From Kutzneria sp. 744 (GTDB lineage Bacteria; Actinomycetota; Actinomycetes; Mycobacteriales; Pseudonocardiaceae), in the NCBI RefSeq assembly GCF_000568255.1, contig NZ_KK037166.1:623205-687204 (forward strand): a DNA stretch of 64,000 nt, given 5' to 3'. Both the position numbers and the translations under genes were made by a program. Below the pieces are notes generated by a model. It searched no databases. It was given only the letters and a program-made list of their open reading frames with translations, and was not told the origin of the DNA. Positions 1 through 14,733 of this stretch are shown one piece after another; within the stretch, counting starts at the first letter, position 1, and the number at the start of each line of letters is the position of its first letter.

Positions 1-2
1 TC

Positions 3-1658
3 ATGGGCACACCCGAAGATCCAATCCGTCGACGACGCGTCGACGGCTCACCTCGATGGCGGCCATCGCCGGATTGCTGGGTGGCCGGCCTGTTCGCAGC
101 CGGCCCCGCATCGGCCGACTCCGCACCGGGATACACCGTCTTCGTCGGTTACGCCGACACGCTTCGCCCGCTGCCGCGGAACTTCCCGACGCCGTTCGAC
201 ACCGCCGCCGGCGTGGTCGACGAGGGCCTGCCGGGCAGCGCCTCGCTCGACGGCGGCGCCATCCGCATCGCCAACGCCACGGCGGCGACCGAGAACGTCG
301 ACTACATCACCGTCTCCTTTGGACCGTGCACCTTCGACCTCTGGCCGCACAACGTCGCCCTGCCGTTCGGCGGCCAGCTCGTCCTCGGTCCCACGGCCAC
401 CGGCGGCGGCGACGGCTGCACCCCCGGCGTCACCACCGGACCATCGCTGTTCGACACCTCCGACATCGGCCCCAACGGCGCCGACTGGGCGGGAAACTGC
501 ACCCAGTCCGGCGTCGTCCCCCAGGTCACCGTGAGCGTGAACGGCGTCGTTACGACCTACCCCGACACCGGACAGGTCCTCAATACCGGCGGTGTCGACG
601 GCGCCGACTGCGGCCGGCCGGGCATCCCCGCCGGCAACGAATCGGCCCAGTGGGTGTCGATCGGGTCGCCGCCCTGCGCAACCGGGGCCCAGCTGGCGCT
701 CGCGCCGGCCACGCAGACTCACACCGTCGGCCAGACGGCTTCGGTGACGGCCACGTTGTCCGCCTGCGGCACGCCGCTGACCGGGGCGACGGTCGACTTC
801 GCCGTGCAGTCCGGACCCAACACCGGCACGACCGGCTCGGGGCCCGCGGTCACCGACGCCAACGGCAACGCTTCGTTCACCTACACCAGCGCGACCACCG
901 GCACCGACACCGTTCAGGCCACCGTCACCAACGCCGTCGGCCCGATCCCGTCGAACACGGTGAACGTCGTGTGGCAGAAGCGACCCACGGCGATCACCTC
1001 CACCACCGCGCTGCAACCCTTCGCCGAAGGCGGCGTGGCCGCGTTGTCCTCGACCCTGACCGACGCCGGCAACGGCGCGCCGTTGCCGGGCAAGAACGTC
1101 ACCATGACCCTCGGCTCGGGCAGCACCGCGCAGAGCTGCTCCGCCGTCACCGACGCCGCCGGAACCGCGGCCTGCTCGATCAACCCGGTCACCGTCGGCC
1201 TCGGTCCGCAGCCGGTCACCGACAGCTTCCCCGGTGACGACGCCGACCTGCCTTCCGACAACGCCCAGCACGCCTTGGTGTACGCCTACAGCCATGGTGG
1301 GTCCTTTGTGGTCGGTGACCGCAGCGCAAGCGGATCGGTGACGTTCTGGGGCGCGCAGTGGGCCCGCGTCAACGTTCTCAGCGGCGGCGGCGCACCGGCC
1401 AGCTTCAAGGGCTTCGAGGACACTCCGCCCGCACCGGGCTGTGGAATCTCGTGGAGCACCGACCCCGGCAACAGCACGCCGCCGCCCGCCGGCGCGCTTC
1501 CGGCCTACATGGCCGTGGTCGTGGCCGACCACGTCACCAAGTCCGGGGCGACCATCACCGGCGACACCGTGCACGTCGTCGTCGTGAAGACCGATCCGGG
1601 GTACCAGCCTGATCCAGGCCACCCGGGCACCGGAACCGTGGTCGCCACGGTCTGCTGA
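3..1658 (+). CDS. Secreted bacterial Ig-like (Big_1) repeat protein, signal peptide frameshifted
   Basis: The mature part contains at least two Ig-like modules: one around residues 230-320 resembling Big_1 domains, with the usual VTDANGNASFTYTS strand, and one around 330-420. A C-terminal module of about 120 residues contains the FWGAQWARVN-type motif common in actinobacterial secreted proteins. The role is probably cell-surface or extracellular, with no catalytic motif seen. The frame used here reads a non-hydrophobic N-terminus ending in GLFAAGPASA just before the mature sequence. The +2 frame reads a typical n/h-region (RRRLTSMAAIAGLL) up to the GGG at 79-81. Removing one G joins them into a normal signal peptide with an ASA cleavage site. 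The true start is therefore uncertain and may lie left of the window. Confidence 0.75.
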   Translation: MGTPEDPIRRRRVDGSPRWRPSPDCWVAGLFAAGPASADSAPGYTVFVGYADTLRPLPRNFPTPFDTAAGVVDEGLPGSASLDGGAIRIANATAATENVDYITVSFGPCTFDLWPHNVALPFGGQLVLGPTATGGGDGCTPGVTTGPSLFDTSDIGPNGADWAGNCTQSGVVPQVTVSVNGVVTTYPDTGQVLNTGGVDGADCGRPGIPAGNESAQWVSIGSPPCATGAQLALAPATQTHTVGQTASVTATLSACGTPLTGATVDFAVQSGPNTGTTGSGPAVTDANGNASFTYTSATTGTDTVQATVTNAVGPIPSNTVNVVWQKRPTAITSTTALQPFAEGGVAALSSTLTDAGNGAPLPGKNVTMTLGSGSTAQSCSAVTDAAGTAACSINPVTVGLGPQPVTDSFPGDDADLPSDNAQHALVYAYSHGGSFVVGDRSASGSVTFWGAQWARVNVLSGGGAPASFKGFEDTPPAPGCGISWSTDPGNSTPPPAGALPAYMAVVVADHVTKSGATITGDTVHVVVVKTDPGYQPDPGHPGTGTVVATVC

Positions 1659-1674
1659 CAACGGGCCCGACACC

Positions 1675-1700
1675 GCCCCGGCGTCTCACGGCGCCGGGGC
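1675..1700. terminator. Hairpin between convergent genes
   Basis: Nine-base arms GCCCCGGCG (1675-1683) and CGCCGGGGC (1692-1700) with a short loop lie between the stop of the Ig-like protein gene and the convergent stop of the antiporter gene. There is no T-tract, as is common in high-GC actinomycetes. Confidence 0.6.
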
Positions 1701-1729
1701 ATCCGTCGGAGCCACTGCCTTCCGTGGGG

Positions 1730-3199
1730 TCAGCCGTTCAGCGGCACGGTGAACACCGGGCCGGGATCGCGGGACTGCTCGGGGTCGACGAGCACCAGAA
1801 CCTCGTCGCCGGCCTGGATCACGGTGGACGGCCGCACGTGCAGCGGCTGCGCGTCCCGGATGACCATGCTGATCCACACCGTTTCGCCGATATCGAGATC
1901 CTCGATCGCCCGCCCGTCGGCGGCGGCTCCCGACGCCACCCGCAACCGCCGCAGCCCCTCGGGCCGTTCCCGAAACCGCACCCCCAGGCCCCACGGCGTC
2001 AGCTCCACCTCGCGCATCGGCACACCGCACCAGCGCGCTACCGTCGGCACCAAGCTGCCCTGTACCAACACAGAAAACGCGACCACCACGAAGATGACGT
2101 CGTAGATCAGAGTGGTGTCGCCCAAGCCCGCGCCGAGGACGAACGTGCCGAGCAGGATCGGCACGGCGCCCTTGAGCCCGGAGAACAACACGAACACCCG
2201 TTCCCCGAAGCGAAGGCGGACCGGCCACAGCACCAGCCCGACGAACAACGGCCGGATCACGAACGCCAGCAGCACGGCCAGCACGAGCCCGATCAGCCAG
2301 GCTCCGCCGTCGGCCAGGCTGCCCAGGTTCACGGTCAGGCCGAGCACGACGAAAGCCACGATCTCGGCGATGCTCGCCAGTGAGGCGTGGAACCGTTTGA
2401 TCTCCGCCTTGTACGGTGCGCGTTCGTCGCCGACCAGGATGCCGGCGACGAACACCGCCAGAAACCCGGAACCATGCGCGACGGTGGCGATCCCGTACAG
2501 CGCCAACGCCATCGCCAACGTCCGCAATGCGTACAGGCCCTCGTTGGGCAGCTGCACGTGCCGCATCACGATCACCAGCAGCTTGCCGCCGAAGAACCCG
2601 ACCGCGCCGCCGATCACCATCTGCAGCAGGAAGTCGACCGCGACACCGCCGAAGTCGATGCCGCCGCCGGAGCCGGCGGCGAGCAGGCTGACCATCAGCG
2701 CGATGCCCACCGGGTCGTTCGCGCCGGACTCGCCCTCGAGGATGACACCGGTACGGCCGGTGATCTCCCGCCGGCCGAGCACGGAGAACACGACCGCCGG
2801 ATCGGTCGGCGACAGCGCAGTGCCGATCACCAGCGCGATCTGCCAGTCGAAGCCGCACACCACGTGCGCCGCCACCGCGATGGCCGCGGCGGTCACGAAG
2901 GTGCCGGCCACGCCGGTCCACACCACCGAGCCGGCGGCGGAACGGAAGCGTTTCCAGCCGATGTGCATGCCACCGTCGAACAGCACCACCGCGAGCGCCA
3001 CGGTCACGATCCGCTGCACCGAGGTCGTCGACAGCCCACCCAACGACGGCACCAGGTCCGAGGCCGCCGCCGCGCACACCAGGAAGATCACCGGCGCCGG
3101 GATCCGCAGCCACGCGCTGATCCGGTTGGAGAACACCGCGGCCAACGCGGCCAGCGAGACAATCAGCACGACCACACCGAACGGCTCGACATCCGCCAC
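1730..3199 (-). CDS. K+/H+ (cation/proton) antiporter, CPA1 type, with TrkA-C domain
   Basis: This is a 489-residue protein with about twelve hydrophobic segments over residues 5-390, matching the NhaP2/CvrA group of monovalent cation/proton antiporters in the cytoplasmic membrane. The segment with SPTDPAVVFSVLG (about residue 110) is the conserved ion-binding region, and a second acidic motif, EGESGANDPVGIAL, is also typical. Residues about 400-489 are hydrophilic and resemble an RCK_C/TrkA-C regulatory domain (INDV-type strands ending GDEVLVLVDP). The start is GTG, preceded by GGAAGGGG. It is transcribed alone. The likely role is K+ or Na+ extrusion and pH homeostasis; the ion specificity is inferred. 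Confidence 0.9.
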   Translation of the reverse strand: MADVEPFGVVVLIVSLAALAAVFSNRISAWLRIPAPVIFLVCAAAASDLVPSLGGLSTTSVQRIVTVALAVVLFDGGMHIGWKRFRSAAGSVVWTGVAGTFVTAAAIAVAAHVVCGFDWQIALVIGTALSPTDPAVVFSVLGRREITGRTGVILEGESGANDPVGIALMVSLLAAGSGGGIDFGGVAVDFLLQMVIGGAVGFFGGKLLVIVMRHVQLPNEGLYALRTLAMALALYGIATVAHGSGFLAVFVAGILVGDERAPYKAEIKRFHASLASIAEIVAFVVLGLTVNLGSLADGGAWLIGLVLAVLLAFVIRPLFVGLVLWPVRLRFGERVFVLFSGLKGAVPILLGTFVLGAGLGDTTLIYDVIFVVVAFSVLVQGSLVPTVARWCGVPMREVELTPWGLGVRFRERPEGLRRLRVASGAAADGRAIEDLDIGETVWISMVIRDAQPLHVRPSTVIQAGDEVLVLVDPEQSRDPGPVFTVPLNG

Positions 3200-3522
3200 C
3201 GCCGCGTCCCCTTCCGCCGATGATCAGGAGGATAGCGACGATTCACCGGACCGGCCCATGTTCGGTCGTCCCATAATCGACCAACACCGCGAAGTTCGCG
3301 CAGAGTCGGCGGAACGGCCGACCGGGCCGAACAACCCCGTAGACGGCATGCGAACCAACCGGCGATCACGGCGGTTCAGTCGTTCGTGTCTGCCGAGCCT
3401 GAGCCTTGGCCGACGGGCGCGTGGGTCTTCGTCGAAAGGTCAGGACGGCGTTGACGAACCGGCCCGGGTCCAGGCCGATCGCCATGTGCCCCTGCCGCTA
3501 CGAGTCCGGTCCCGATGCAGTG
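3200..3522. other. Intergenic region upstream of the antiporter gene
   Basis: I see no convincing gene in this 323-bp stretch. It must contain the antiporter promoter (minus strand). A short palindrome CGCGAAGTTCGCG lies near 3288-3300 and could be a regulatory site, but nothing else supports it. Confidence 0.4.
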
Positions 3523-3987
3523 TCAGGACGCTGCGCTCTCGTCGCCGCTCCCGCAGCCGCTCGCCAGCTGCCGGCTTCGCAGGTTCAACCGGGCCGCGAA
3601 CTCCCGGGCGTCTGTGCCAGCAGTCGGCTTGTTTTTCATCTGCACCGTCCGCAAGATCGCCACGTCCGGGCCCTCGACGGTGAGGTAGACCTCTCGATCG
3701 TCCTGTTTCTTCTTTGCCGCCAGCGCGAACGGGCCCATCACCGCGAGCCGTGTCGCGGTGATCCGCCGATTCAAGGTGCCCGAGTCCTCGACCCGGGCCG
3801 TGAGGCCCGCGAGCGAGTGGCGGCGTGCGGCGTCTCCCAGTCCCTCGATCAGCTCGGTCTCGGTCAGGTTCAGGTTGGCGAAGCTGGCGATCACCCCAGC
3901 GGCCTTCTTCGCATTCGATACCGAGACCTGGTATGCGATGCCGATCGCGAAGACCGCGATCATAATGATCACGACGACAGCCGTCAT
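3523..3987 (-). CDS. Small membrane-anchored hypothetical protein
   Basis: This is a 154-residue protein with one N-terminal hydrophobic segment (TAVVVIIMIAVFAIGIAYQV) followed by a charged domain. I chose the internal ATG at 3987 because it has GGAGG six bases upstream and places the hydrophobic stretch directly at the N-terminus; an in-frame upstream extension is hydrophilic and has no ribosome site. The soluble part (two helix-rich segments, then alternating strands such as REVYLTVEGPDVAILRT) is not a family I recognise. The topology suggests a membrane-tethered cytoplasmic or extracytoplasmic domain. It is on the same strand as the antiporter gene but 320 bp upstream of it. Confidence 0.65.
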   Translation of the reverse strand: MTAVVVIIMIAVFAIGIAYQVSVSNAKKAAGVIASFANLNLTETELIEGLGDAARRHSLAGLTARVEDSGTLNRRITATRLAVMGPFALAAKKKQDDREVYLTVEGPDVAILRTVQMKNKPTAGTDAREFAARLNLRSRQLASGCGSGDESAAS

Positions 3988-4097
3988 GGCTACCTCCGGC
4001 ACTCGCAGTATCGGGCTGAGCTGGGCATCGCCAATTCGATCCACATCGTTACGAGCTGCGCCCACACCGGCACCGCGCCAGCGCAGCTCGGTATCTG

Positions 4098-4790
4098 TTG
4101 AGATTGCCCGACTGTTCCGGAATCATGTCTCCCCGCGCAAGCGGAGCTGTTACCTGTGCGGTCAACCCGGACGCTGTCGGCCTATCCGCAGAAGAACGTC
4201 ACCTCGCGGCGATCGTCCGCAAGCGTGCTTCCGACGACGCCGCCAAACTACGGCTGGTCGAGGCTATGCTGGCCGACGCCCGCGCAGCGGTGGCGCCGTG
4301 GTCATCCGCTCACTGTTCCACCAGACCTCGTCGACAGCGAAGCAACTCGGCCTGGCCGCCCTCAAAAAGGTCGCGGCGGTGGGCTTGCCAGGCGGCGCCT
4401 ACGCTGGATCGAAGCTCTACTCCTCACGAGCACCGTTCGGCTTCCTTGGTACCGGAGCGACCTCCAGTCCAATAGCGACGGCACCGGGTCGGTCACCGTG
4501 ATCGGTCGCTTCACCGTCGAAACATTCGCCGTGGAACCGAACACCACCGCCGCGCCGGTAGTGCACCCCGGCCAGGACGCCGCGAGCAACCCGTTCGCTC
4601 GATGCACACCTTCCACGTCGGGTTCTGGTTCAACGATCCCGCCGACGCCGTCAAGGCCGGCTGCCCGGGCACGGTCACGCCGTTCAACCGCGAGCACAAC
4701 GCCGGAGTGCAGGACATGAGCACCCGTCACACTCCTACCTGCCGGTCAAGTGCTCCTTCCGCCCCGACCATCTGACGCGAAGTCCGGTTC
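4098..4790 (+). pseudogene. Multi-frame gene relic (hypothetical protein)
   Basis: Protein-like sequence runs through this segment but changes frame at least four times. One frame gives LSAEERHLAAIVRKRASDD near 4185-4290. Another gives KQLGLAALKKVAAVGLPGG near 4340-4410. A third gives GSVTVIGRFTVETFAVEP near 4485-4560. A fourth gives FHVGFWFNDPADAVKAG from 4602. A last one gives HSYLPVKCSFRPDH near 4725-4775. Each change steps the reading register by the same amount, as expected from successive single-base losses. The blocks have consistent amino-acid composition and read as one former protein of about 220 residues with unknown function. It is a decayed gene or a locally error-rich sequence. 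Confidence 0.55.
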
Positions 4791-4826
4791 CCACGCCGGA
4801 CTCCGCGTCCGCCAGACCTGTGGCGT

Positions 4827-5576
4827 TCACAGCGACGCGCGTAGTTCCCACAACTCGGGGTAGAACCGGTCGTCCAGATGGGACTTGAGGTGGGCGGCGC
4901 CGGCAGTGCCGCCGGTGCCGCGCCTGCGGCCGATCTGGCGCTGGACGGTGAGCAGGTGCCGGCCCTGCCAGGACGCCCACGCCTGGTCGTGGGCGATGAG
5001 GGACTCGGCGAGGTCCCAGAGCTGACGGTGCTGATCGGTGCGCGCGGCGAGCCGGCGGCAGGCGGCCGCCCGGTGCGACGTCGTCGCCACCTCGAAGCCG
5101 GCCTCGGTGAGCAGGGCCAGGAAACCGTCCCACAGCGAGGGTTCCTCGAACCGCCGGCGAAGCCGTGAGCGTTCCTGCTCGGTGTACCACGGCCGGTCGA
5201 GATAGGTGTCGTCCCGTGAGCCGGACAGCAGCGCGAGCTCCCAGAACTGGGCGGACTGACCGCCGTTGCCGGCGCCGAGCGCGCCGCGGAAGACAGCGAA
5301 GTCCTGCGGCTCCATGGTGTCCAGCACGTCGAACTGGGCCAGCAGCGCCCGCTGGATGACCACGGCGCGCTCCAGCCGTTTGCGGGGCAGGTAGCTCTCG
5401 CCGCCGAGCATCCGGTCCCGCGCGTCGCCCAGTTCGAGCAGCAACTGCTTGAACAACAGCTCGAAAACCTGGTGCACGGTGATGAACATGAGCTCGTCGT
5501 GCGCGTCGGGACCGGCGTGTGGGCATTGGTTCTCCAACAACGCGGGCAGCTGGAGATAGGAGCCGTAGACAGGCAT
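4827..5576 (-). CDS. Tryptophan 2,3-dioxygenase family heme enzyme
   Basis: This is a 249-residue homologue of tryptophan 2,3-dioxygenase (TDO), the heme enzyme that opens the indole ring of tryptophan to N-formylkynurenine. Visible family features are HDELMFITVHQ (active-site His35 equivalent), VFRGAL with an Arg at 97, the heme-ligand region with His207 (GRHLLTVQRQIG), GTGGTAG with Thr221, and the C-terminal RFYPELWELR. It is shorter than usual bacterial TDOs (about 280-300) at the N-terminus. The start ATG at 5576 overlaps the stop of the upstream diiron oxygenase gene (ATGA), so it is the last gene of a coupled four-gene operon. No kynureninase or kynurenine formamidase lies nearby, which argues for a biosynthetic rather than catabolic role. 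TDO-superfamily enzymes with altered products (MarE-like) are an alternative. Confidence 0.88.
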   Translation of the reverse strand: MPVYGSYLQLPALLENQCPHAGPDAHDELMFITVHQVFELLFKQLLLELGDARDRMLGGESYLPRKRLERAVVIQRALLAQFDVLDTMEPQDFAVFRGALGAGNGGQSAQFWELALLSGSRDDTYLDRPWYTEQERSRLRRRFEEPSLWDGFLALLTEAGFEVATTSHRAAACRRLAARTDQHRQLWDLAESLIAHDQAWASWQGRHLLTVQRQIGRRRGTGGTAGAAHLKSHLDDRFYPELWELRASL

Positions 5577-6508
5577 CAGGGTGCACTCCCGTCGATCAGA
5601 CCGTGCGCGGCGAACTGCTCGACCGCACCGGGCACGGCGAACACGCCGGCCGACTCGCACATGCGGAGGCTGGCCCGGCAGATAGCTCTGATCCGCTCGT
5701 CGCCGGCGTCGCCGCCGTAGCAGTCGCGGACGACGGCGGTCGCCGTGGAGTCGTCCAGGCCCGCCAACCGGAGTGACGAGCGAACCGGTTCCACGTCCCA
5801 GAGCAGGCAGCCACGGATCAACGCAGGCAGCGCGAACGCCACACGAGCCCGGATCGGCTCGTCCAGCTGGCGCCAGAGCTCGTGGAAGAACCCGGTGAAG
5901 TAGCGGTGGTGCCGCCCCTCGTCCAACGCGTGGTCGCGAACGGTCTCCCGGACCGCGCCGACCACCGTGTCGTCGTTCGGAATCTCGTGCAGCACGGCGG
6001 TGATCAGCGTCTCGAACACGACCACCTGCAGCAGAACGGCCAGCCGCGGATGGTCGGGCAGGGTCATGGCGGCGGCGTCGGCGAGCTGGCCGACGAACCC
6101 GCCGTAGTCCCAGCCCGGCACGGCCACCCGGGTCACGGCACCGATCTGGTCGGCGAGGTCCAAGCTGTACAGGGCGTGATAGCCCTCGTCGCAGTACACC
6201 TTGAACGCGGCCAGCCGGCTGGCGGGCGGCAGCTCGATCCCGCTGCGGCCGTTGGCGATGAGCTCGGCCCCACGATTGACGACACGGGTCTCCAGGTGCG
6301 CGGTGGACAGCAGGAACTGGTAGAGATGGCGCACCGTCAGTTCCTGCCGCCGCTCGTCGGGCAGCTCACGCACGGCCTCGTGGGACAGGTAGGGCACCAG
6401 GCGTTCCGGGAAGAAGACCCTGCCCGCCTCCGCCTCCTCGTGGAAGACCCGTCGGACGCCGGTGCGCACGCCGGCCAGGTCGTGCCATCGGTCCATCGGG
6501 CCGGTCAC
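5576..6508 (-). CDS. AurF-family diiron oxygenase (putative arylamine/amine N-oxygenase)
   Basis: This is a 310-residue protein matching the p-aminobenzoate N-oxygenase AurF family. All seven expected metal ligands are present: Glu73, ExxH at 108-111, Glu166, His193, and ExxH at 197-200. The spacings 35, 3, 58, 27, 4 and 3 are almost identical to AurF (35, 3, 60, 27, 4, 3). Family enzymes oxidise an amino group to hydroxylamine, nitroso or nitro using O2. I chose GTG at 6508 because it overlaps the TGA of the upstream PLP-enzyme gene (GTGA); ATG at 6495 is an alternative. Its partners (TDO, ACC-synthase-like enzyme, SDR) suggest an amine derived from tryptophan/kynurenine or from an amino acid as substrate; this is inference. 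Confidence 0.85.
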   Translation of the reverse strand: MTGPMDRWHDLAGVRTGVRRVFHEEAEAGRVFFPERLVPYLSHEAVRELPDERRQELTVRHLYQFLLSTAHLETRVVNRGAELIANGRSGIELPPASRLAAFKVYCDEGYHALYSLDLADQIGAVTRVAVPGWDYGGFVGQLADAAAMTLPDHPRLAVLLQVVVFETLITAVLHEIPNDDTVVGAVRETVRDHALDEGRHHRYFTGFFHELWRQLDEPIRARVAFALPALIRGCLLWDVEPVRSSLRLAGLDDSTATAVVRDCYGGDAGDERIRAICRASLRMCESAGVFAVPGAVEQFAAHGLIDGSAP

Positions 6509-7710
6509 GACAGCTCGCCGATGCGGCGCAGCGCTTCCCGGACGTGGCCCGGGTCCGTGGTGTGGCACAGTCGGAACCAGCCGGGCTCCGGGCCGCCGAA
6601 CGCCGCGCCGGGGATGAGGTTCACCCTGGCCTCGTCCAGCATTCGTTGCCACAGCTGGTGTTCCGGCAGCCGCCGGCCGAGGTCGGCCCAGATCGTGAAG
6701 CCGGCCCCCGGCCGCACATGGGGGATGCCGCGGTCGGCGAGGCAGCCGGCGGCGTGGTCGTAGGAGTCGGCGAGCCGGGACTGATTCTCCTTGAGGAAGC
6801 CGGCGACCCAGTCCTGGTCATCGAGCAGGCCGGCGAGCAACGCCTGCGTGTGGGTGGAGACCGGGGCGAAGTAGGCCAGTGCGGTCGCCGCCGCGAGGAC
6901 CTCCGGATGCTCGGTGTGCAACACGCCCACCTTGAGACCGGACAGCCCGAAGTCCTTGGCAAATCCCCAGATCACGTGCAGCCGGGCCCGGCTTCCCTCT
7001 CGTACCAGTGGATCCAGCACGCTGACGAACGGCCGGGCGCCGAACACGGAGTTGGCGTAGATCTCGTCGGCGATGACATCCACGTCGTGGCGCTCCGCGA
7101 CCGCCAACACCTCCCTGAGCGCCGCCACAGGATGGACGTTCCCGGTCGGGTTGCACGGCGAGGTGATCGCGACCGCCCGCACGGTGACGCCGTCCTTACG
7201 AGCCTGCACGATCGCCCGTTCGATCGCCGAGGCGTCCAGGGCGAAGCCGCTCGCGGGAGACAACAGCGCTGGTGTCAACCGGGCTCCCGACCGACCCGTG
7301 AGCAGCACATCGAGCGCGCTGTAATAGGGCGCGGGAACGACGATCGCCTCGTCCGGGTCACACAGGACGCTCGCGATGACGTCCAGCGCAGCACTCGCGC
7401 CGCTCACCACGACCAGCTGGTTCGGGTCCACCGGTGTTCGCCAGGTCCCGGACAGCAGCTGAGCGGTCGCGGTGCGAAGCCGCACCGATCCGTGCAGTGG
7501 GCCGTATCGCACCTCCCGAGGGCAGATTTCCCGCGCTGCGGCGAGCTTGGGCGACAACAGGTCCCATACCAGCCGGTTCTCCGCCGTGCCGAGATTCAGG
7601 AAGCCGGCCGGATTATGTTGTGGGTCATAGGGATCCTGTTCGACCCGCAGGTGGGCGGCCGCGATGGCCGGAGCGTGGGCGGTCAGCGCAGCGGCGCGCC
7701 GGGACACCAT
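6505..7710 (-). CDS. ACC-synthase-like fold-type I PLP enzyme
   Basis: This is a 401-residue PLP enzyme closer to 1-aminocyclopropane-1-carboxylate synthase (ACS) than to ordinary class I aminotransferases. It has GTAENRLVWDLL (compare the ACS GLAENQ motif), PAPYYSALD (PLP/SAM-contacting Tyr), SPCNPTGN (Asn187), DEIYANS (Asp215), the Schiff-base lysine Lys252 in GFAKDFGLSGLKVG, and the carboxylate-binding WFRLC near the C-terminus. ACS-like enzymes in bacteria catalyse either ACC formation from SAM or gamma-substitution/transamination in natural-product pathways. ATG 7710 overlaps the TGA of the SDR gene and its own stop overlaps the next GTG. The exact reaction cannot be read from sequence. 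Confidence 0.85.
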   Translation of the reverse strand: MVSRRAAALTAHAPAIAAAHLRVEQDPYDPQHNPAGFLNLGTAENRLVWDLLSPKLAAAREICPREVRYGPLHGSVRLRTATAQLLSGTWRTPVDPNQLVVVSGASAALDVIASVLCDPDEAIVVPAPYYSALDVLLTGRSGARLTPALLSPASGFALDASAIERAIVQARKDGVTVRAVAITSPCNPTGNVHPVAALREVLAVAERHDVDVIADEIYANSVFGARPFVSVLDPLVREGSRARLHVIWGFAKDFGLSGLKVGVLHTEHPEVLAAATALAYFAPVSTHTQALLAGLLDDQDWVAGFLKENQSRLADSYDHAAGCLADRGIPHVRPGAGFTIWADLGRRLPEHQLWQRMLDEARVNLIPGAAFGGPEPGWFRLCHTTDPGHVREALRRIGELS

Positions 7711-8534
7711 CAGGCCACGCTCCTCGCGGTCGTGCTGCTGGCGTGGCCCATCGCGGCGCCGGGGCCGGTGAGCAGCCCCGGGTGCACTCCGAGTCCGAGC
7801 GACGCGTCGAGCACCGCGCCGTGCAGCAGCGAGGCCTCTTCCCGGCACAGCCACCAGATCAGCTCGGCGACCTCCTCCGGGCTGATCAGCCGCCGGCCCG
7901 GCAGCCGGAGGACGAGGTCGTCCAGTTCGGCGCCGGCCAGCCCGTCGAGCAGACTCGCTTGCAGCATCGGGGTTCGCACCGCGCCCGGGCAGACCGCGAA
8001 CACGTCCACCGGCTCGTGGGTCAGCTCGGCGGCCAGGTGCTTCGTGAGGTACACCAGCGCCGCCTTGCTCATGCCGTCGGCGATGTGGAAGTCGGGGAAG
8101 GTGGCGACCCCGCCGCCGACACTCGCCACGTTGACGATCTTGCCGTGGCCGCGGTCGAGCATGCTCGGCAGCACCGCCCGCGCCAGCCACAGCGGCCCGA
8201 CGCTGTTCACCTGAAGGAACGCCGCGTCGCACTCCTCCGGCGAGCCCTCGACATAGCGCTGCACCGTCTTCGACCCGACCGCCGCGTTGTTGATCAGGAT
8301 GTCGACCGGTTCGGGCAGCTGCTCATGCAGCCGCCGATGGCTCTCCCAGTCCCCCTGGTCGAACTCGAACGCTCGCGTCCGCGCGCCGCCCAGCTCGGCC
8401 ACGAGTGCCTCCGCCGCCGCGCGGTTCGAGCGGTAGGTGAACCACACCCGGTGACCGCCGAGTGCGAAGCGACGGACCAGCGCCCGACCGATGCCGGTGG
8501 AGCCGCCGGTGATGAGCACGCCGTGCCTTGCCAT
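7710..8534 (-). CDS. SDR-family oxidoreductase lacking the catalytic Tyr
   Basis: This is a 274-residue short-chain dehydrogenase/reductase. The cofactor motif TGGSTGIG (9-16), NNAAVG (82-87), catalytic-type Ser138 and the structural PGAVRTPM motif are present. In the YxxxK position the sequence reads DGMSK (Asp153, Lys157): the usual catalytic tyrosine is replaced by aspartate, confirmed from the codons (GAC GGC ATG AGC AAG). The protein may use another acid, act as an isomerase/dehydratase, or be non-catalytic. It is the first gene of the four-gene operon. The stretch GAGG immediately precedes ATG 8534, so the ribosome site is weakly spaced and the promoter must lie in 8535-8690. Confidence 0.85.
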   Translation of the reverse strand: MARHGVLITGGSTGIGRALVRRFALGGHRVWFTYRSNRAAAEALVAELGGARTRAFEFDQGDWESHRRLHEQLPEPVDILINNAAVGSKTVQRYVEGSPEECDAAFLQVNSVGPLWLARAVLPSMLDRGHGKIVNVASVGGGVATFPDFHIADGMSKAALVYLTKHLAAELTHEPVDVFAVCPGAVRTPMLQASLLDGLAGAELDDLVLRLPGRRLISPEEVAELIWWLCREEASLLHGAVLDASLGLGVHPGLLTGPGAAMGHASSTTARSVA

Positions 8535-8691
8535 GCCTCGATTCTGTGCCCGTCCGCCCCATCCACGCCGGCGACGCCGGCACTCCGTGTGATCGTCCGG
8601 CAGCTGTCCCCCGTCGCCCGGATTCGGGCGAGGAGATGTGTCCGACGGCTGGCACGCTCAGGACCGGCGTCGGCAGGTTCGAGCGCGTGAT

Positions 8692-8713
8692 CAGCTGAGT
8701 GCCGGCTCAGCTG
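8692..8713. promoter_or_regulatory. Inverted repeat upstream of the DinB-like gene
   Basis: CAGCTGAG (8692-8699) and CTCAGCTG (8706-8713) form perfect 8-base arms around a 6-base spacer, in the divergent region between the SDR operon and the DinB-like gene. It could be an operator or a 5'-UTR hairpin. Confidence 0.35.
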
Positions 8714-8733
8714 GCGAGGCGCACACTGCCGGC

Positions 8734-9252
8734 ATGGACCGGCAGGCGGTGCACAGCGAATTCGATGGAGCGCGGACGGCGTTTCACGAGCTGCTGGGCG
8801 GCGCCTCCGACGACGATCTGCGTCGTCGGTCGGCGGGGACGCGGTGGTCGAACAAGCAGCTGTTGTTCCATATGCTGCTCGGCTACCTGATCATCCGCGC
8901 GCTGCGGAACCTCGTCGTGCTGTTCAGCCGGCTTCCGGAGCCGGCCGGGCGAGCCTGCGCACGGGTGCTCAACGCGGTCACAGTGCCGTTCGACGTGGTG
9001 AACTGCGCCGGGGCGTGGCTGGCGGGGACCGTGCTGCCGCGTCGAATTCTGCTCCGCCTGTTCGACGGCGTCATCGCGGCACTGCATCGCCGGCTCGACA
9101 GCGAGTCCGAGGCGACGCTGGCGAGGAGCATGCACTACCCGACGCGGTGGGACCCGTTCTTCCGCGATGTGATGACGCTGGCCGACGTGTACCACTTCCC
9201 GACGCAGCACTTCGACTTCCACCGCGCTCAGCTCACATTGGACGCCTGCTGA
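8734..9252 (+). CDS. DinB-like domain protein
   Basis: This is a 172-residue protein with the pattern of the DinB/YfiT four-helix family: a start-proximal helix with F..L, then LLGGASDDDLRRRSAGTRWSNKQLLFHMLL (the region with a W and the first His ligand), and a late DVYHFPTQHFDFHRAQL segment with His residues that would complete a metal site. DinB-superfamily proteins include metal-dependent thiol transferases (bacillithiol/mycothiol S-transferases) and uncharacterised members; the substrate is unknown. The middle 60 residues are rather hydrophobic. I chose ATG 8734; an upstream in-frame start adds a low-complexity leader overlapping the inverted repeat. Confidence 0.65.
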   Translation: MDRQAVHSEFDGARTAFHELLGGASDDDLRRRSAGTRWSNKQLLFHMLLGYLIIRALRNLVVLFSRLPEPAGRACARVLNAVTVPFDVVNCAGAWLAGTVLPRRILLRLFDGVIAALHRRLDSESEATLARSMHYPTRWDPFFRDVMTLADVYHFPTQHFDFHRAQLTLDAC

Positions 9253-9384
9253 GGAACACGAAGTCGCAAAACGGTTCGGCCAGCAGGAAGACGCGTATGC
9301 GGCACACGCGTTCCTGCCCGCCTGAGCTTCCACCGCCGCACTCCGGGCCGAACCAGGGACGGATCGAACCCTTTCCGGTCGATA

Positions 9385-9400
9385 ACTTCGAATTCAAAGC
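9385..9400. promoter_or_regulatory. Probable MarR operator (autoregulatory box)
   Basis: The 16-mer ACTTCGAATTCAAAGC lies 15 bp before the MarR start. It matches 11-12 of 16 positions of the two palindromic boxes at 11403-11418 and 11437-11452 (half-site CTTCGA). No copy was noticed elsewhere in the window. Its location at the regulator's own promoter suggests autoregulation. Confidence 0.5.
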
Positions 9401-9415
9401 ATGTACGATCGCGGG

Positions 9416-9922
9416 ATGAGTGAACCGGCGCCAGGCCTGAGCGCCGAGCAACTTGGCGCGTACTTCGCTCTGGTGGAGGTCGGCAGCCTTCTCCAGTACG
9501 CGGTGGACGAGCACCTGCGCATCGACGGCGACCTCAGCCATGTGCAGTTTCAGGTCCTCGCCCGGCTCGTCGACGCGCCCGGGGGCAAGCTGCGGATGAC
9601 CGATCTGGCCGACGGTGTCGTGTACAGCCGCAGCGGGCTGACCTATCAGGCGGGCTTGCTGGACAAACGCGGCCTGATCACCCGTTCGCCGTCGCCGGAC
9701 GACGAGCGCAGTGTCATGGTGGCGGTCACCAAACTCGGCCGCGGCCTGGTCGCCCGGGTGCTCCCAGGGCATGTCGACCGCGTACGGCGCCTGTTGTTCG
9801 AGCCCTTGACCGGTGACGACGTCACCGCCCTCAACGTCGTTCTGGGCCGGATCCGTGACCACATGCGCGCCGCTCCACCCCGCTCCGCCAAGCCTCGCGC
9901 CCGGCGCAACCAGACCGACTAA
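9416..9922 (+). CDS. MarR-family transcriptional regulator
   Basis: This is a 168-residue winged-helix regulator. The recognition region LRMTDLADGVVYSRSGLTYQAGLLDKRGLITRS (about residues 60-95) and the wing SPDDERSVMVAVTKLG are typical of MarR proteins that sense small aromatic or oxidising molecules. I prefer ATG 9416 (MSEPAP) to the ATG at 9401, because the presumed operator ends at 9400 and the added five residues are not conserved-looking. It is followed 14 bp later by an MmyB-type regulator gene on the same strand. Its likely targets are itself and the oxidoreductase at 11482. Confidence 0.85.
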   Translation: MSEPAPGLSAEQLGAYFALVEVGSLLQYAVDEHLRIDGDLSHVQFQVLARLVDAPGGKLRMTDLADGVVYSRSGLTYQAGLLDKRGLITRSPSPDDERSVMVAVTKLGRGLVARVLPGHVDRVRRLLFEPLTGDDVTALNVVLGRIRDHMRAAPPRSAKPRARRNQTD

Positions 9923-9936
9923 GGCAGGGAAGAGCG

Positions 9937-10770
9937 ATGGACCGCGCGTTGCTGGCGGACTTTCTCCGGGCTCGCCGGGAAGCACTGCAGCCGGAGGAGG
10001 TGGGGCTGCCGCGGGGCGCCCGGCGTCGTACCGGTGGGCTGCGGCGCGAGGAGGTCGCGGTGTTGGCCGGCATGTCGGCCGACTACTACAGCCGGCTTGA
10101 GCAGAAGCGCGGCCCGATGCCGTCCGAGCAGATCCTGGCCGCCGTGGCCGGGGCCCTGCGGCTCAGCCCGAGCGAGCGGGAACACCTGTTCGCCCTCGCC
10201 GGGCACGCGGCTCCGCGGCGTGCCCTTCCGGACGACCGGGTCGGTCTGGCCATCAGGACCATCGCGGAGCGGCTCTCGGACACGCCCGCGATCGTGTTCT
10301 CCCGGTTCGGCGAGGCGTTGCTGCAGACCCCGGCGGCGGTGGCGCTGTTCGGTGACTACACCCGTTTCGAGGGTCTGTCGCGCTACCTGGTCTATCGCTG
10401 GTTCACCGACCCGGCCCAGCGGGCCATCTACCCGCCCGAGGACCATGACGTACGCGCCCGGGTCTTCACCGTGGACCTGCGGGCGGCGTACACGACCGAT
10501 CCGGCGGGCACCGCCGGGGAGATCGTCGACGCGCTGCTGGCGGTCAGCCCCGAGTTCGCCGAGGTCTGGCGGCGGCACGAGGTGGACGTCACCCATCACC
10601 ACGATCTCAAACGCTACCGGCACCCGGAACTGGGCGAGCTGGAGTTGTACAGCCGGCGGCTGGTGGAACCCGACGAGGGCCAGGAGCTGCTGGTCTTCAT
10701 GGCCGAACCCGGATCGCCGAGTGAGGCGAAGCTCCGGCGGCTGATCACCGTGACCGATGGCGAGGCATGA
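9937..10770 (+). CDS. XRE-family regulator with MmyB-like ligand-binding domain
   Basis: This is a 277-residue protein with an N-terminal Cro/C1 helix-turn-helix (about 5-75: LRREEVAVLAGMSADYYSRLEQ) and a C-terminal MmyB-like PAS-type domain (about 95-270). The latter contains the signature LYxRWFTDPAQRAIYP, VGEIVDALLAVSPEFAEVW-type helix and a final GQELLVFMAEPGSPS. MmyB domains bind fatty acid or other hydrophobic ligands in a methylenomycin-cluster regulator. These actinobacterial regulators usually control an adjacent or divergent SDR/oxidoreductase; here an oxidoreductase gene follows two genes downstream. It probably forms an operon with the MarR gene (14-bp gap). Confidence 0.88.
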   Translation: MDRALLADFLRARREALQPEEVGLPRGARRRTGGLRREEVAVLAGMSADYYSRLEQKRGPMPSEQILAAVAGALRLSPSEREHLFALAGHAAPRRALPDDRVGLAIRTIAERLSDTPAIVFSRFGEALLQTPAAVALFGDYTRFEGLSRYLVYRWFTDPAQRAIYPPEDHDVRARVFTVDLRAAYTTDPAGTAGEIVDALLAVSPEFAEVWRRHEVDVTHHHDLKRYRHPELGELELYSRRLVEPDEGQELLVFMAEPGSPSEAKLRRLITVTDGEA

Positions 10771-10875
10771 GCCGAGTCTGAAGTTGTTATCCATGCTCTG
10801 TCATACCGTGGATGACGAGAACGTTCATCCGCCTCCCGTTCCGCGCCACGCTTGAGTGGTCGAACCGGGAAGGCG

Positions 10876-11364
10876 GTGAGCGACGTGGATCGGGAAACAC
10901 TGGCGCACTTTCTCCGGCAACGCCATGACGAGGCGATCCCCGGCCGGCCCGGTCACCGGGCCAGCCCGATCCTGGAGCTCATCGTCGAGCGCCTGCCGGA
11001 GTACCCCGCGACGGTGTTCTCCCGGTTCGGCGAGGTGTTGCTGCAGACCGGTCCGGCGATCGCCCTGTTCGGCGACTACACGCGGACCGGCGGATCGTCG
11101 CGTTTTCTGGTGGATCGCTGGTTGAGCGACCCGTCGGCGCGTGAACGCTACCTGGTCGAGGTGGGCGTCCCCGTTCGGCGCCGCCCGAGGTGCTATTGGC
11201 ATCTCGCACTGGGCAGGGTGGCTTTGTACCGCCATCTGCTGGCCTGTCCGGCGCAGCGCCAGGCGCTGCTGGTCTTCATGGCTGTCCCCGGCTCCGCCAG
11301 CCACGCGAAGCTGCATGCTCTGGCCGCCGCGAGCAGCAAGAAGAGTTCTGCCGACCGGCGGTAA
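10876..11364 (+). CDS. HTH-less paralogue of the MmyB-domain regulator (truncated)
   Basis: This 162-residue protein is a shortened relative of the preceding gene. It keeps an N-terminal LAHFLRQR helix, then jumps directly to the MmyB domain (YPATVFSRFGEVLLQTGPAIALFGDYTR, nearly identical to the neighbour) and ends with the same LLVFMAVPGSASHAKL tail. The helix-turn-helix (about 75 residues) and a central block of about 75 residues are missing. The GTG start at 10876 has GGAAGG closely upstream. It could be a decaying duplicate or a dominant-negative/ligand-binding partner without DNA binding. The reading frame is intact over 162 codons, which is compatible with either. Confidence 0.65.
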   Translation: MSDVDRETLAHFLRQRHDEAIPGRPGHRASPILELIVERLPEYPATVFSRFGEVLLQTGPAIALFGDYTRTGGSSRFLVDRWLSDPSARERYLVEVGVPVRRRPRCYWHLALGRVALYRHLLACPAQRQALLVFMAVPGSASHAKLHALAAASSKKSSADRR

Positions 11365-11402
11365 CCCTGTCGAAGACGGCTGTCACCGGCCACACCGAAC
11401 CC

Positions 11403-11452
11403 GCTTCGAAAGCGAAGCATGCCATCGCCCAAACATGCTTCGAGCTCGAAGC
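11403..11452. promoter_or_regulatory. Tandem palindromic operator boxes before the oxidoreductase gene
   Basis: GCTTCGAAAGCGAAGC (11403-11418) and the perfect palindrome GCTTCGAGCTCGAAGC (11437-11452) lie 34 bp centre to centre, 30-80 bp before ATG 11482. Their half-site CTTCGA is shared with the box in front of the MarR gene (9385-9400), so that regulator is the best candidate to bind here. Confidence 0.6.
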
Positions 11453-11481
11453 ACAACGGATTCAGAGAGAAGAGGCTCGTC

Positions 11482-12423
11482 ATGAAGGCAGTGCGTTTCC
11501 ACGAGTACGGCGACCCCGAGGTCCTGCGCTACGAAGACGTGGACCAGCCGGTCCCCGGTGTCGGCGAGGTCCGGATCCGGGTGGCGGCGACGTCGTTCAA
11601 CCCGGTCGAAGGCAACATCCGCGCCGGTGTCATGCAGGGCCCCATCCCGCTCCAGCTGCCGCACACCCCCGGCATCGACCTCGCGGGCACGGTCGACGCG
11701 CTCGGCGAGGGCGTGACCAGCTTCGACATCGGTGACCGGGTGATCGGCGCCCTGCCCCTGACCAGCACCGGCGCGGCCGCCGAGTACGTCATCGCCCCGG
11801 TCCGGATCCTGGCGGCAGCCCCCACGAGCGTCCCACTGGTGGACGCCGCCGGACTACCGCTGGTCGGGCTCACCGCGTGGCAGGCGCTGTTCGACCACGC
11901 GAAACTGACCACCGGCCGGCGAGTGCTGATCAACGGCGCGGGCGGCGTCGTCGGCGGCTACGCGGTGCAGCTGGCCAAGAACGCCGGCGCGTACGTGATC
12001 GCCACGACCGGCCCGCGCAGCTCCGAGCAGGCCAAGACGGCCGGCGCCGACGAGATCCACGGCCCCGGGATCCCGCAGCTGTCCGAGCCGGTCGACATCG
12101 TGCTCAACTTCGCCCCGATCGCCCCGGAGCAGATGGCCGCCCTGTCCGCCGTGATCCGGGACGGCGGCGTGCTGGTCAACACCACCGTGTGGATGCCCGC
12201 CGCGTCCGACGAGGCCCGCGGCGTACGGGGAGTCAATCTCTTCTTCCGGCCCGACGCCGAACAGCTCGCCCAGCTGGTGACCCTGCTTGACGCTGGCAAG
12301 CTGCACCTCGGGGCGACCCGGCGGGTGCCGCTGGCCGGGCTGGCGCAGGTGCACGCCGACGTCGCCACCGCCCCGATCAACGGAAAGATCGTCTTCGTCG
12401 CCCCCGGCGCCACCATCGACTAG
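11482..12423 (+). CDS. Zinc-independent NADPH:quinone oxidoreductase-like MDR protein
   Basis: This is a 313-residue medium-chain dehydrogenase/reductase. It starts with the characteristic MKAVRFHEYGDPEVLRYEDV, has the GroES-like fold in the first 120 residues, the NADP-binding motif VLINGAGGVVGGYAVQLAKN (about 145-165) and a C-terminal substrate-specific domain ending GKIVFV. No structural or catalytic zinc cysteines are seen, placing it with quinone oxidoreductases/enone reductases. Start ATG 11482 follows AGAGAGAAGAGG. The two palindromes just upstream suggest control by the MarR protein at 9416, probably in response to an electrophile or quinone. Confidence 0.88.
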   Translation: MKAVRFHEYGDPEVLRYEDVDQPVPGVGEVRIRVAATSFNPVEGNIRAGVMQGPIPLQLPHTPGIDLAGTVDALGEGVTSFDIGDRVIGALPLTSTGAAAEYVIAPVRILAAAPTSVPLVDAAGLPLVGLTAWQALFDHAKLTTGRRVLINGAGGVVGGYAVQLAKNAGAYVIATTGPRSSEQAKTAGADEIHGPGIPQLSEPVDIVLNFAPIAPEQMAALSAVIRDGGVLVNTTVWMPAASDEARGVRGVNLFFRPDAEQLAQLVTLLDAGKLHLGATRRVPLAGLAQVHADVATAPINGKIVFVAPGATID

Positions 12424-12513
12424 AAGGAAGGCGCTCGGTCCTCCCTCGTTCGCCGCAGTGGTCGCCCCCATGGCTCAAGCCATGGCGGGCGGCACACCCT
12501 CGGCCGGCTCGGG

Positions 12514-12843
12514 TCAACCGCAGGGCACCGTGAGTTCCTTGCCTACAGCGGTGTAGGTGTTCACCGCGGTGCCGTTGCACGTGTACTGCACAAAACCCTT
12601 GCCGCTGGCCACAACCTGCTCGACACCGTTGACCAACCGGGAGATCGACACGGGGAACAGCACAGTCGGCCCCAACGGCCAGTAGGAGATCTCGTTCACG
12701 GCGGTCAACGTGGTCGAGGTGGCGGTGAAGGTCTGGATGGGACCGCCAAGGGCATGAGCGGGTGCCGCCGTGGCGACGGCACCGCCCATCACCGTGGCCA
12801 CGGTGGCGGCGATCAGGACATGTCGATGGTTTCTGCGGGACAT
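12514..12843 (-). CDS. Small secreted protein of unknown function
   Basis: This 109-residue precursor has a clear Sec signal (MSRRNHRHVLIAATVATVMG... ending APAHA) and a mature part of about 75 residues made of alternating beta-like segments and two cysteines, the last in the C-terminal VPCG. The start at 12843 is chosen to place the positively charged n-region at the N-terminus. I do not recognise the family. It is convergent with the oxidoreductase gene and apparently monocistronic. Confidence 0.65.
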   Translation of the reverse strand: MSRRNHRHVLIAATVATVMGGAVATAAPAHALGGPIQTFTATSTTLTAVNEISYWPLGPTVLFPVSISRLVNGVEQVVASGKGFVQYTCNGTAVNTYTAVGKELTVPCG

Positions 12844-13151
12844 GACCACCGGTCTAACAGCGTCACCGGGAGCTGTCAGCCGCCGTTTGTGCTCATCCGG
12901 CCTACGACGATGTCGGGCAGACATACATCGGAAACGATAGTCCACAGTGGATATACGACGAACGCGTTTCCCCCGGCGTGACAGCACTTTCGTCCTCAGC
13001 GGAACTGTCGATGTCCGCCTGAACTCCCGAAAGGCCGCGCAGCGCGGGTTCGGCGGGCACGAACTGTCCGATGTGGACTATGACGTTCGAGGCCCGCCTA
13101 CGCGGCGAAGTTCCCCAAAGCCGGCGCGAAGGTCATCGCCGAGCGCGGCCC
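12844..13151. other. Non-coding region with a possible short coding relic
   Basis: No complete gene is visible. A short forward-frame stretch near 13097-13150 reads AYAAKFPKAGAKVIAERGP between stops and may be a leftover of a gene end. It is too short to assign. The left part should carry the promoter of the small secreted protein. Confidence 0.3.
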
Positions 13152-13901
13152 TCAGCGATCGGGGCGGTCTCCGGCCAGGGCGCGACTCGCCGTCGCGAAG
13201 ACCGTGGGCGTCAATGCCGGATTGTCCAGATCCGGCAACCATCCGGCCGAACCGGTGCAGGCCGCCAACGCGTAGGCGCAGGCCCGCAGAGTGTCGAAGT
13301 CGGCCCGAGTGGCGGACTTGTCGTGCAGTGCCCGCACCAGACCGGGTAACGCCAGCAAGGGGTGCGCCGGGTCGTCGGCGGCGATCAACGGCGGCTGCCC
13401 CTCCTCGGTGGTGGGCAGGACGACCGGCACACCGCCGCCCAGCGGATCAATGACCGCGTCGGAGCGATGGGTGATCCGACGCAGCGGATAGCTCAGGGCG
13501 TCGGTCGGCTCCCAGGACACGATGTCGCCCACCCCGATCGCCAGCAGCAAGGGGCACATCGTCGGAATCGCCGTGGACTCGACGATGACCACCCGTGCCG
13601 TCGCCGGCGAGCGACCGGTCCTGGCCAGCAACACCAGCACCCGGCTGGCGAGTCCGACGGCGGTCATCTCCTCACGGGTCAGACACGGAACCTCCGCCGT
13701 CGCCAGGAACTCCGCCTTCAACCGCCGGGCCCGGATCTGGTCCACCCCGCACAGATAGACGGCATCGACGGCGGGCGGACGAGGCATGGACAACAGTTCG
13801 GCCGAGGCCGTCACGATCTCCAGATCGGGGATCTCGCCAGGCAGATCGCTGTCGGCATCCCCGATGACAGCCAGTCGCAGCGGCCGCCCCATCGCAGTCA
13901 C
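13152..13901 (-). CDS. Divergent malic-enzyme-like NAD-binding-domain protein
   Basis: This is a 249-residue protein. The segment REEMTAVGLASRVLVLLARTGRSPATARVVIV and the later PLLALPGLVRALHDKSATRADFDTLRACAYALAA follow the layout of the malic enzyme NAD-binding domain (T/A..V.LA..L.....L.ARVVI..., then the NN.L.FPGLFRGALD-type motif), but the dinucleotide glycine motif GxGxxG is absent. It may have lost catalysis. The GTG start at 13901 overlaps the TGA of the small upstream gene (GTGA), so the two are translationally coupled. The assignment rests on pattern resemblance only. Confidence 0.5.
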   Translation of the reverse strand: MTAMGRPLRLAVIGDADSDLPGEIPDLEIVTASAELLSMPRPPAVDAVYLCGVDQIRARRLKAEFLATAEVPCLTREEMTAVGLASRVLVLLARTGRSPATARVVIVESTAIPTMCPLLLAIGVGDIVSWEPTDALSYPLRRITHRSDAVIDPLGGGVPVVLPTTEEGQPPLIAADDPAHPLLALPGLVRALHDKSATRADFDTLRACAYALAACTGSAGWLPDLDNPALTPTVFATASRALAGDRPDR

Positions 13902-14107
13902 CCGTTCCCTTCGGGCAGTGTGACAAGAATGTCCGGATCCACCCACCCGGTGACATCGACGTCGTGCCGGCGGGCGACCGCCAGCAGATCGAGCAGCCGA
14001 CCCGAGTGCAACTGCTCGTGATAGCCATCCGCGTCCCGCCCGGCCTGGCGGATATCGCGTTGGACGTCCTGGACGCGGCCGCGCAACGTCGCGACGAACT
14101 CACCCAT
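13898..14107 (-). CDS. Small hypothetical protein coupled to the malic-enzyme-like gene
   Basis: This is a 69-residue acidic/helical protein starting at ATG 14107 (MGEFVATLRGRV) with an in-frame alternative start at 14134. It is predicted to form an alpha-helix followed by a short HxVDVTGWVDPDILVTLPEG tail. There is no family match I can name. Its stop overlaps the downstream GTG, so the two proteins are made together. Confidence 0.5.
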   Translation of the reverse strand: MGEFVATLRGRVQDVQRDIRQAGRDADGYHEQLHSGRLLDLLAVARRHDVDVTGWVDPDILVTLPEGNG

Positions 14108-14288
14108 CGGATCCGCCCTCCCACGGCCGCCCACCCAGCGGCATCAGGTTCTGCGCAATTGCAGACTATCGCAACCCTGTGACACGAGCCTGTGATGCTT
14201 CTCTCCCGCTCAGATCGTTACCGGCACAGGAGATTGCCCGGTGCGGCCACACCGCGGGCGTGGACGAAGTGCGCCGGAGGTGCCCGGC

Positions 14289-14654
14289 TCAGCCGCCCGG
14301 TGCGTGTGACTCCGGCGCCGGTCCGGGCACGGGGGTGCGGAGGTCTTCCAGCAGCTCGATCTGGCCCGACAGCACTCCGGTCAGGATCGACCGGGCGACC
14401 GCGAGCAGCTCGGCCACCTGCGGGCTGGTCAGCGAATAGTAGACGTTCGAGCCTTCCTTGCGGGTGATCACCAAGCCGGCCCGGCGCAGCACCGCCAGCT
14501 GCTGCGACAGATTCGCGGCCTCGATGCCGACCTCGGGCAACATCTCGGCGACAGCGTGCTCACGCCGGCTAAGCAGCTCCAGCACCCGGATCCGCGCCGG
14601 ATGCCCCAACGTCTTGAAGAACTCGGCCTTCAGCTGGTACAGCGGCCTGCTCAC
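14289..14654 (-). CDS. ArsR-family transcriptional regulator
   Basis: This is a 121-residue winged helix. FFKTLGHPARIRVLELLSRREHAVAEML is the first half of the ArsR fold, and AANLSQQLAVLRRAGLVITRKEGSNVYYSL is the recognition helix and wing. No ArsR metal motif (CxC in helix 3) is present, so it is probably a non-metal or redox-responsive member, ending in a proline-rich tail. The in-frame start is GTG 14654; the only nearby ATG (14680) is out of frame and opens a nine-codon leader ORF whose TGA overlaps this GTG. Confidence 0.85.
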   Translation of the reverse strand: MSRPLYQLKAEFFKTLGHPARIRVLELLSRREHAVAEMLPEVGIEAANLSQQLAVLRRAGLVITRKEGSNVYYSLTSPQVAELLAVARSILTGVLSGQIELLEDLRTPVPGPAPESHAPGG

Positions 14655-14680
14655 GCCGACCACCCCGCCCTCGTCGTCAT
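14651..14680 (-). CDS. Possible nine-residue leader peptide for the ArsR gene
   Basis: ATG at 14680 has GGGAGG eight bases upstream, the best ribosome site in the region. It encodes MTTRAGWSA and then TGA. That TGA overlaps the GTG start of the ArsR gene (GTGA), so ribosomes ending on the leader could re-initiate on the regulator. This may be a coupling device or coincidence. Confidence 0.35.
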   Translation of the reverse strand: MTTRAGWSA

Positions 14681-14733
14681 GACGTGATCCTCCCCTGTCC
14701 CTGTCACCGGAGGACCGAGCACACCCACCCTTC

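Follow-up and report, generated by a model that had tools for sequence, protein, structure and literature searches.

A four-gene operon in the genome of Kutzneria sp. 744 is, as we lean toward reading it, one minimal biosynthetic cassette, which would lead from tryptophan via kynurenine to a putative small N-oxygenated product. The operon occupies positions 4827-8534 on the minus strand of the window, that is, of the whole 64,000-nucleotide stretch analyzed here (contig NZ_KK037166.1, positions 623,205 to 687,204). The first gene (7710-8534, 274 amino acids) encodes a short-chain dehydrogenase/reductase (SDR; Pfam adh_short_C2, 131.5 bits) and the second (6505-7710, 401 amino acids) a pyridoxal phosphate (PLP) enzyme (Pfam Aminotran_1_2, 217.1 bits). 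They are followed by an AurF-family diiron protein (5576-6496, 306 amino acids counted from the ATG; Pfam AurF, PF11583, 84.8 bits with a cut-off of 29.6) and a tryptophan 2,3-dioxygenase (TDO; 4827-5576, 249 amino acids; Pfam Trp_dioxygenase, 135.9 bits with a cut-off of 34.9). All four proteins match the expected Pfam families above cut-off, and the original prediction of this operon, made from the sequence alone, is exact in its coordinates and confirmed in its families. Its claim of ATGA, GTGA and ATGA junctions holds only in part: the SDR/PLP-enzyme and AurF/TDO gene pairs each overlap by one base in a TGATG (at 7710 and 5576), and the PLP-enzyme/AurF junction is a GTGA overlap if the AurF-family gene starts at GTG 6508, whereas a start at ATG 6496 would leave a short gap; either may be the true start. 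Scans for promoters and terminators detected none.

The operon is real and not a product of chance, since the order SDR-PLP enzyme-AurF-TDO is found at 14 of 14 other actinobacterial loci as far as the contigs reach, 13 of these being complete. Genomes with the cassette were defined by a PLP-enzyme match at E <= 1e-80, and the genome counts are lower bounds, as the four best first-look candidates were scored per genome in the family and class searches. By this measure the PLP enzyme is present in at least 10 of 390 genomes of the family and at least 5 of 394 in a sample drawn from the class, Kutzneria sp. 744 being included in both; the four additional genomes of this sample all belong to one other family, in which at least 4 of 35 genomes have the enzyme. 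Within the genus of the window, at least three of seven genomes carry the cassette. The SDR, PLP-enzyme and AurF genes are adjacent in that order in all 14 genomes with a match, and the TDO gene comes next in 13; in G338 the contig stops after the AurF gene, so the TDO position is cut off there. The fifteenth cassette locus is that of Allonocardiopsis opalescens (L008). The original prediction had allowed that the genes might prove scattered in relatives; instead the four families co-occur in conserved order. Moreover, the distance matrices of the four cassette proteins are correlated in all six pairwise comparisons (r 0.71-0.90), with 0 of 2000 permutations in each, which fits block inheritance and does not by itself demonstrate function. 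The next PLP homologue found (in G697, 29%) has no further cassette gene within 19.5 kb around it, and none was found in the DNA flanking the TDO relatives L009-L013, where the neighbors were read for L009 and L011.

Comparison at the DNA level delimits the cassette. Similarity to the two congeneric copies covers window positions 4826-8600, running from 4826 to 8546 for L062 (84.9%) and from 4829 to 8600 for L061 (83.0%). Outside the cassette, positions 1-16000 of the window gave no alignment at E <= 1e-8 to the 20 kb around either copy, and the L061 and L062 copies align to each other over the cassette only. Because similarity among the three congeneric copies ends close to the cassette edges, the four genes are a self-bounded conserved unit, set in differing surroundings. 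Such a unit is probably mobile, though rearrangement around a fixed cassette would be an alternative account. The repeat scan returned nothing attributable to the cassette edges. As to carriers, no PLP-enzyme match was found on plasmids at E <= 1e-30 and no AurF relatives in phages at E <= 1e-10, and both were set aside; AurF relatives on four Streptomyces plasmids are only 32-37% identical.

Next to most of the cassettes lies a fifth gene, and it is this gene that strengthens the kynurenine part of the earlier idea of a tryptophan/kynurenine-derived small molecule, an idea that is supported overall. Eleven of the 14 other cassettes (L008, L030, L031, L063, L064, L065, L067, L068, L069, L070 and L071) have an alpha/beta hydrolase gene as a neighbor; it was not found around L061, L062 or L066, nor in the 64-kb window. 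The gene stands upstream on the same strand in three cases, downstream on the same strand in four and downstream and convergent in four, and these three arrangements suggest that the association probably arose more than once, although some of the genomes are close relatives. Pfam assigned the alpha/beta hydrolase fold to the four proteins scanned, and the motif HGGYW, which we take to be a mark of kynurenine formamidase, is present in eight of eight sequences; the other 3 of the 11 were detected by tblastn only. The L068 hydrolase, the sole query against the PDB, matches kynurenine formamidase 4e11 (E 2.8e-15). By motif, by this one lower-ranking PDB relative and by context, the hydrolase thus resembles a kynurenine formamidase.

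The diiron protein would supply the N-oxygenation. Residue counts here and below cover 15 loci, the window included, for the SDR, PLP enzyme and AurF-family protein and 14 for the TDO, with gene starts in the relatives picked by script close to the start of the window's protein. All seven diiron ligands (E69, E104, H107, E162, H189, E193 and H196) are invariant in 15 of 15. Their spacing in the window protein, 35/3/55/27/4/3, is close to the 35/3/56/27/4/3 given by the ligand positions of DnfA, an AurF-family relative that makes N2 from hydroxylamine (PMC9478400, in excerpt), and the predicted complete ligand set with near-AurF spacing is borne out. Amine N-oxygenation, the family default, would be its putative reaction. 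It resembles the arylamine N-oxygenases AurF, CmlI and AzoC in PF11583, the seven ligands and their almost equal spacing, but it is only remotely similar to the solved members: AurF is matched at E 0.008, and PDB 5hyg, deposited as "Uncharacterized protein" and presumably CmlI, at E 9e-5.

That remoteness leaves room for a different substrate: instead of the aniline, the protein might oxidize an aliphatic amine (alpha or side-chain), giving an oxime, nitro or N-N product. The nearest non-cassette AurF relatives are found at 13 places and are 32-45% identical, and a neighbor scan of 20 proteins covered six of them, at 39-45% identity. One (L032) adjoins a set of PALP, ornithine cyclodeaminase, carbamoyltransferase and ATP-grasp genes, two (L033 and L034) adjoin carbamoyltransferases and one (L035) an ATP-grasp ligase. 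With four of the six beside amino-acid, carbamoyltransferase or ATP-grasp genes, the amine substrate need not be aromatic. However, the remaining two (L036 and L037) have methyltransferase/acetyltransferase and ABC-transporter neighbors, and none of the 13 relatives has a cassette-type SDR, PLP enzyme or TDO in the approximately 19 kb around it (7-15 kb for three of them). Kynurenine, furthermore, carries an aniline, a known arylamine substrate type, and we regard oxidation of an aliphatic amine as unlikely.

The PLP enzyme is of fold-type I and shares with its closest relatives by sequence, 1-aminocyclopropane-1-carboxylate (ACC) synthase and GntC, the PLP Lys, Asn, Asp and carboxylate Arg. 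Plant ACC synthases are nearest (E 5e-62 versus 3e-24 for the next group), and the best NCBIfam model is GntC, whose equivalog cut-off is missed by a wide margin (168.9 of 415). Positions were taken from an alignment of the enzyme with ACC synthases, for which we assume the residue roles and numbering (Tyr85, specificity Glu47, phosphate-site Ser and Arg281). The ACC-synthase motifs noted in the original prediction are largely there: Schiff-base Lys252, Asn187, Asp215 and carboxylate Arg380 are kept in 15 of 15, and Glu44, the AEN Glu corresponding to Glu47, in 14 (Asp in L067). What is missing is Tyr85, whose position (Leu72 in the window protein) holds Leu in 11 of the 15 enzymes and Pro in the other 4. 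The phosphate site is changed as well, the Arg being Lys in 15 of 15 and the Ser being Gly or Ala. The loss of Tyr85 makes the proposed ACC-synthase-type cyclopropane or gamma chemistry doubtful, and our guess is that the PLP enzyme may catalyze a reaction of another type.

The SDR, too, has lost a residue central to the chemistry of its family. It has the classical fold, with the NAD(P) glycines 10, 11, 14 and 16 plus N82, S138 and K157 in 15 of 15; the TGxxxGxG and NNA motifs and the catalytic Ser and Lys of the classical SDR are present. The position four residues before the Lys, where the Tyr of YxxxK is expected, is Asp153 in all 15, and position 151, which HMMER's alternative alignment pairs with the Tyr, is occupied by Ile, Val or Leu. 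Under neither alignment is a catalytic Tyr left, which makes an ordinary SDR step, as implied by the gene's first assignment, doubtful. This absence was not mentioned in the original prediction. According to the excerpted text of PMC7540600, proton donors in imine-reducing enzymes are Asp, Glu or Tyr, and beta-hydroxy acid dehydrogenases gain imine reduction when Lys is replaced by Asp. Since Asp is recognized there as a proton donor in imine reduction, we would guess that the Asp-type SDR reduces C=N and not C=O.

These replacements also bear on a more conventional use of the same enzymes, in which the SDR would reduce the kynurenine ketone, the PLP enzyme would eliminate the resulting gamma-alcohol to give a cyclopropane (2-aryl-ACC) or a gamma-substituted amino acid, and the AurF-family protein would then oxidize the aniline to nitro. 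The proximity to plant ACC synthases speaks for such a gamma route, as does GntC as the best model, even at its sub-cut-off score, because GntC uses a gamma-alcohol leaving group (PMC10367076, in excerpt). Yet an SDR without its Tyr is found at every one of the 15 loci, together with Leu or Pro at the Tyr85 position and Lys for the phosphate-site Arg, and we consider the gamma route quite unlikely.

In the TDO, Tyr4, Tyr7, Phe31, Arg97, His207 and Thr221 are present in 14 of 14 and the active-site His35 in 13; the window protein retains both His35 and the heme ligand His207, as predicted. Thirteen of the 14 retain the GTGG[T/S] loop (GTAG in L070), and the PASG loop reads AGNG in the window protein and xGNG in 7 of 14. 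The altered PASG loop and the common heme superfamily could be read as signs of a MarE-type monooxygenase that makes 2-oxindole, with a route not passing through kynurenine. MarE has the heme His, His55 and the carboxylate Arg in common with TDO (PMC11904535, in excerpt), but carries SLGGR in place of the GTGG loop (PMC11904535 and PMC12312684, both in excerpt). This loop difference and the formamidase-like hydrolase beside most other cassettes make a MarE-type reaction highly unlikely. The cassette TDO is like MarE and PrnB in being, putatively, a specialized TDO-superfamily enzyme of secondary metabolism, and differs from them in its GTGG-type loop and linked hydrolase, which point to true dioxygenation; the sequence comparison behind this distinction was with MarE, not PrnB. 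Among the cassette TDOs, the short ones at L030:8413-9108 and L066:7355-8044 keep the heme His, the Arg and the GTGG loop.

Catabolism of tryptophan appears to be provided for elsewhere in the genome. At approximately 1.735 Mb a separate operon encodes a second TDO, a kynureninase (TIGR01814, 265.5 bits, over cut-off) and a smaller hydrolase with HGGYW. The cassette itself has no kynureninase beside its TDO, in keeping with the original prediction that there was none nearby; the genome's only kynureninase match, that of the separate operon, is about 1 Mb from the window. Among the ten family genomes with the cassette, eight have a kynureninase match (five over cut-off), and no match was found in G338 and G426. 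An accessory unit for tryptophan breakdown, with no product of its own, is a reading of the operon to which the catabolic families of TDO and hydrolase and the eight kynureninase matches might lend color. We reject it as barely credible, because the host owns the separate TDO-kynureninase-hydrolase operon and G338 and G426 lack a match; nor are the conserved PLP enzyme, diiron protein and SDR that accompany the TDO known to act in catabolism. The original prediction had also left room for a TDO feeding the normal kynurenine pathway, a role that the host's second operon could fill. Because of the linked hydrolase, the separate catabolic operon and the genomes without a kynureninase match, the sequence data fit a cassette TDO that makes N-formylkynurenine for a product and not for catabolism.

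On this basis a pathway can be sketched for the minimal cassette. The cassette TDO would open tryptophan to N-formylkynurenine, from which a formamidase-like hydrolase, whose gene adjoins most cassettes and in this genome lies at another place, would free kynurenine. The diiron protein would then oxidize a nitrogen, most likely that of the aniline, giving a hydroxylamine or nitroso group. The PLP enzyme would alter the alpha-amino-acid end, with deamination or transamination the likeliest change, and the aryl nitrogen would close to a ring C=N, joining it to the former alpha carbon. The Asp-type SDR would finally reduce this C=N rather than a C=O; the last three steps are possibly permuted. 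The outcome would be a small heterocycle derived from kynurenine and oxygenated at nitrogen, such as one of the N-hydroxy-4-quinolone or tetrahydroquinolone type, an assignment of product that is doubtful. The fuller proposal, of a mobile cassette for a new class of N-oxygenated kynurenine heterocycles, with an SDR turned into a C=N reductase by Tyr-to-Asp replacement and a new PLP reaction, is tentative and less probable than the biosynthetic cassette itself.

Besides the remote similarity to solved AurF and the neighborhoods of the AurF relatives, several observations weigh against this scheme. The SDRs described as reducing imines in PMC7540600 (same excerpt) rely on Tyr, and the catalytic Lys of SDRs, which this protein retains, is said there to be unfavorable to the iminium transition state; both points reduce our confidence. 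The TDO reaches 181.5 of the TIGR03036 equivalog cut-off of 390.7, under which the genome's catabolic TDO likewise falls, at 354; His35 is Gln in L008, and the cassette TDOs of L030 and L066 are much shorter and divergent. The best PDB match of the L068 hydrolase is "Lipase 1", with 4e11 ranking lower, and the best NCBIfam match of the hydrolase is a hormone-sensitive lipase model, at 136.7 of its cut-off of 320. No close copy of the cassette-type hydrolase was found in the window genome (best E 2.9e-8), only the catabolic-operon type. The four genomes without a cassette-side hydrolase (Kutzneria sp. 744, G571, G572 and G447) all encode this operon-type hydrolase elsewhere, beside the kynureninase in the three congeners and, in G447, 41% identical and apart from the kynureninase, a tally that covers cassette-bearing genomes only. 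Nor do the 14 loci count as independent cases, since identity reaches approximately 95% in some pairs, and the GC content of the cassette (0.705, with flanks of 0.691 and 0.688) gives no compositional sign of transfer.

Supply of kynurenine by a dedicated TDO, often with a formamidase, is familiar from the actinomycin, daptomycin, quinoxaline and anthramycin-type clusters. The cassette resembles these in feeding kynurenine, as proposed, to secondary metabolism, and differs in having no non-ribosomal peptide synthetase (NRPS), hydroxylase or kynureninase; it has the PLP enzyme, the diiron protein and the Asp-type SDR instead. In agreement with the original prediction, no characterized cluster with this four-enzyme set was found among the matches listed in the open-licence PMC literature. 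All of the enzyme families are known; what appears new, judged from sequence, is that they occur together, that the SDR has no catalytic Tyr and that the ACC-synthase-like enzyme is altered.

Other genes near the cassettes are not general features. Three genomes belonging to a single genus encode, near the cassette, a TDO-like protein of some 400 amino acids with a long N-terminal part (L063:13855-15075, L064:14297-15529 and L065:4503-5705), and in these an O-methyltransferase is also close to the cassette and hydrolase. At L030:6516-8408 a histidine/phenylalanine ammonia-lyase-type gene is convergent on the cassette, among the cassette loci only here. Elsewhere in the Kutzneria genome (L046:5322-13538, approximately 9.915-9.924 Mb), a gene run encodes two TDO-superfamily proteins of 245 and 448 amino acids, a FAD monooxygenase, a branched-chain-type aminotransferase and two proteins that are ATP-grasp-like by eye; it is possibly another heme-dependent aromatic oxygenase cluster. 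The window also holds an MmyB-like regulator (MLTR_LBD) at 9937-10770 on the plus strand, after it a shorter member of that family (10876-11364, plus strand), and a GvpL/GvpF gas-vesicle protein candidate, recognized by eye, at 14915-15595 on the minus strand.

If the proposal is true, four small enzymes, or five with the hydrolase, would constitute a complete self-bounded route from tryptophan to an N-oxygenated metabolite on one short piece of DNA. With no NRPS or polyketide synthase genes in the set, such a cassette may be easy to overlook in genome mining. Two of its enzymes, the SDR and the PLP enzyme, are without a residue central to the chemistry of their families and are thus candidates for new reactions.

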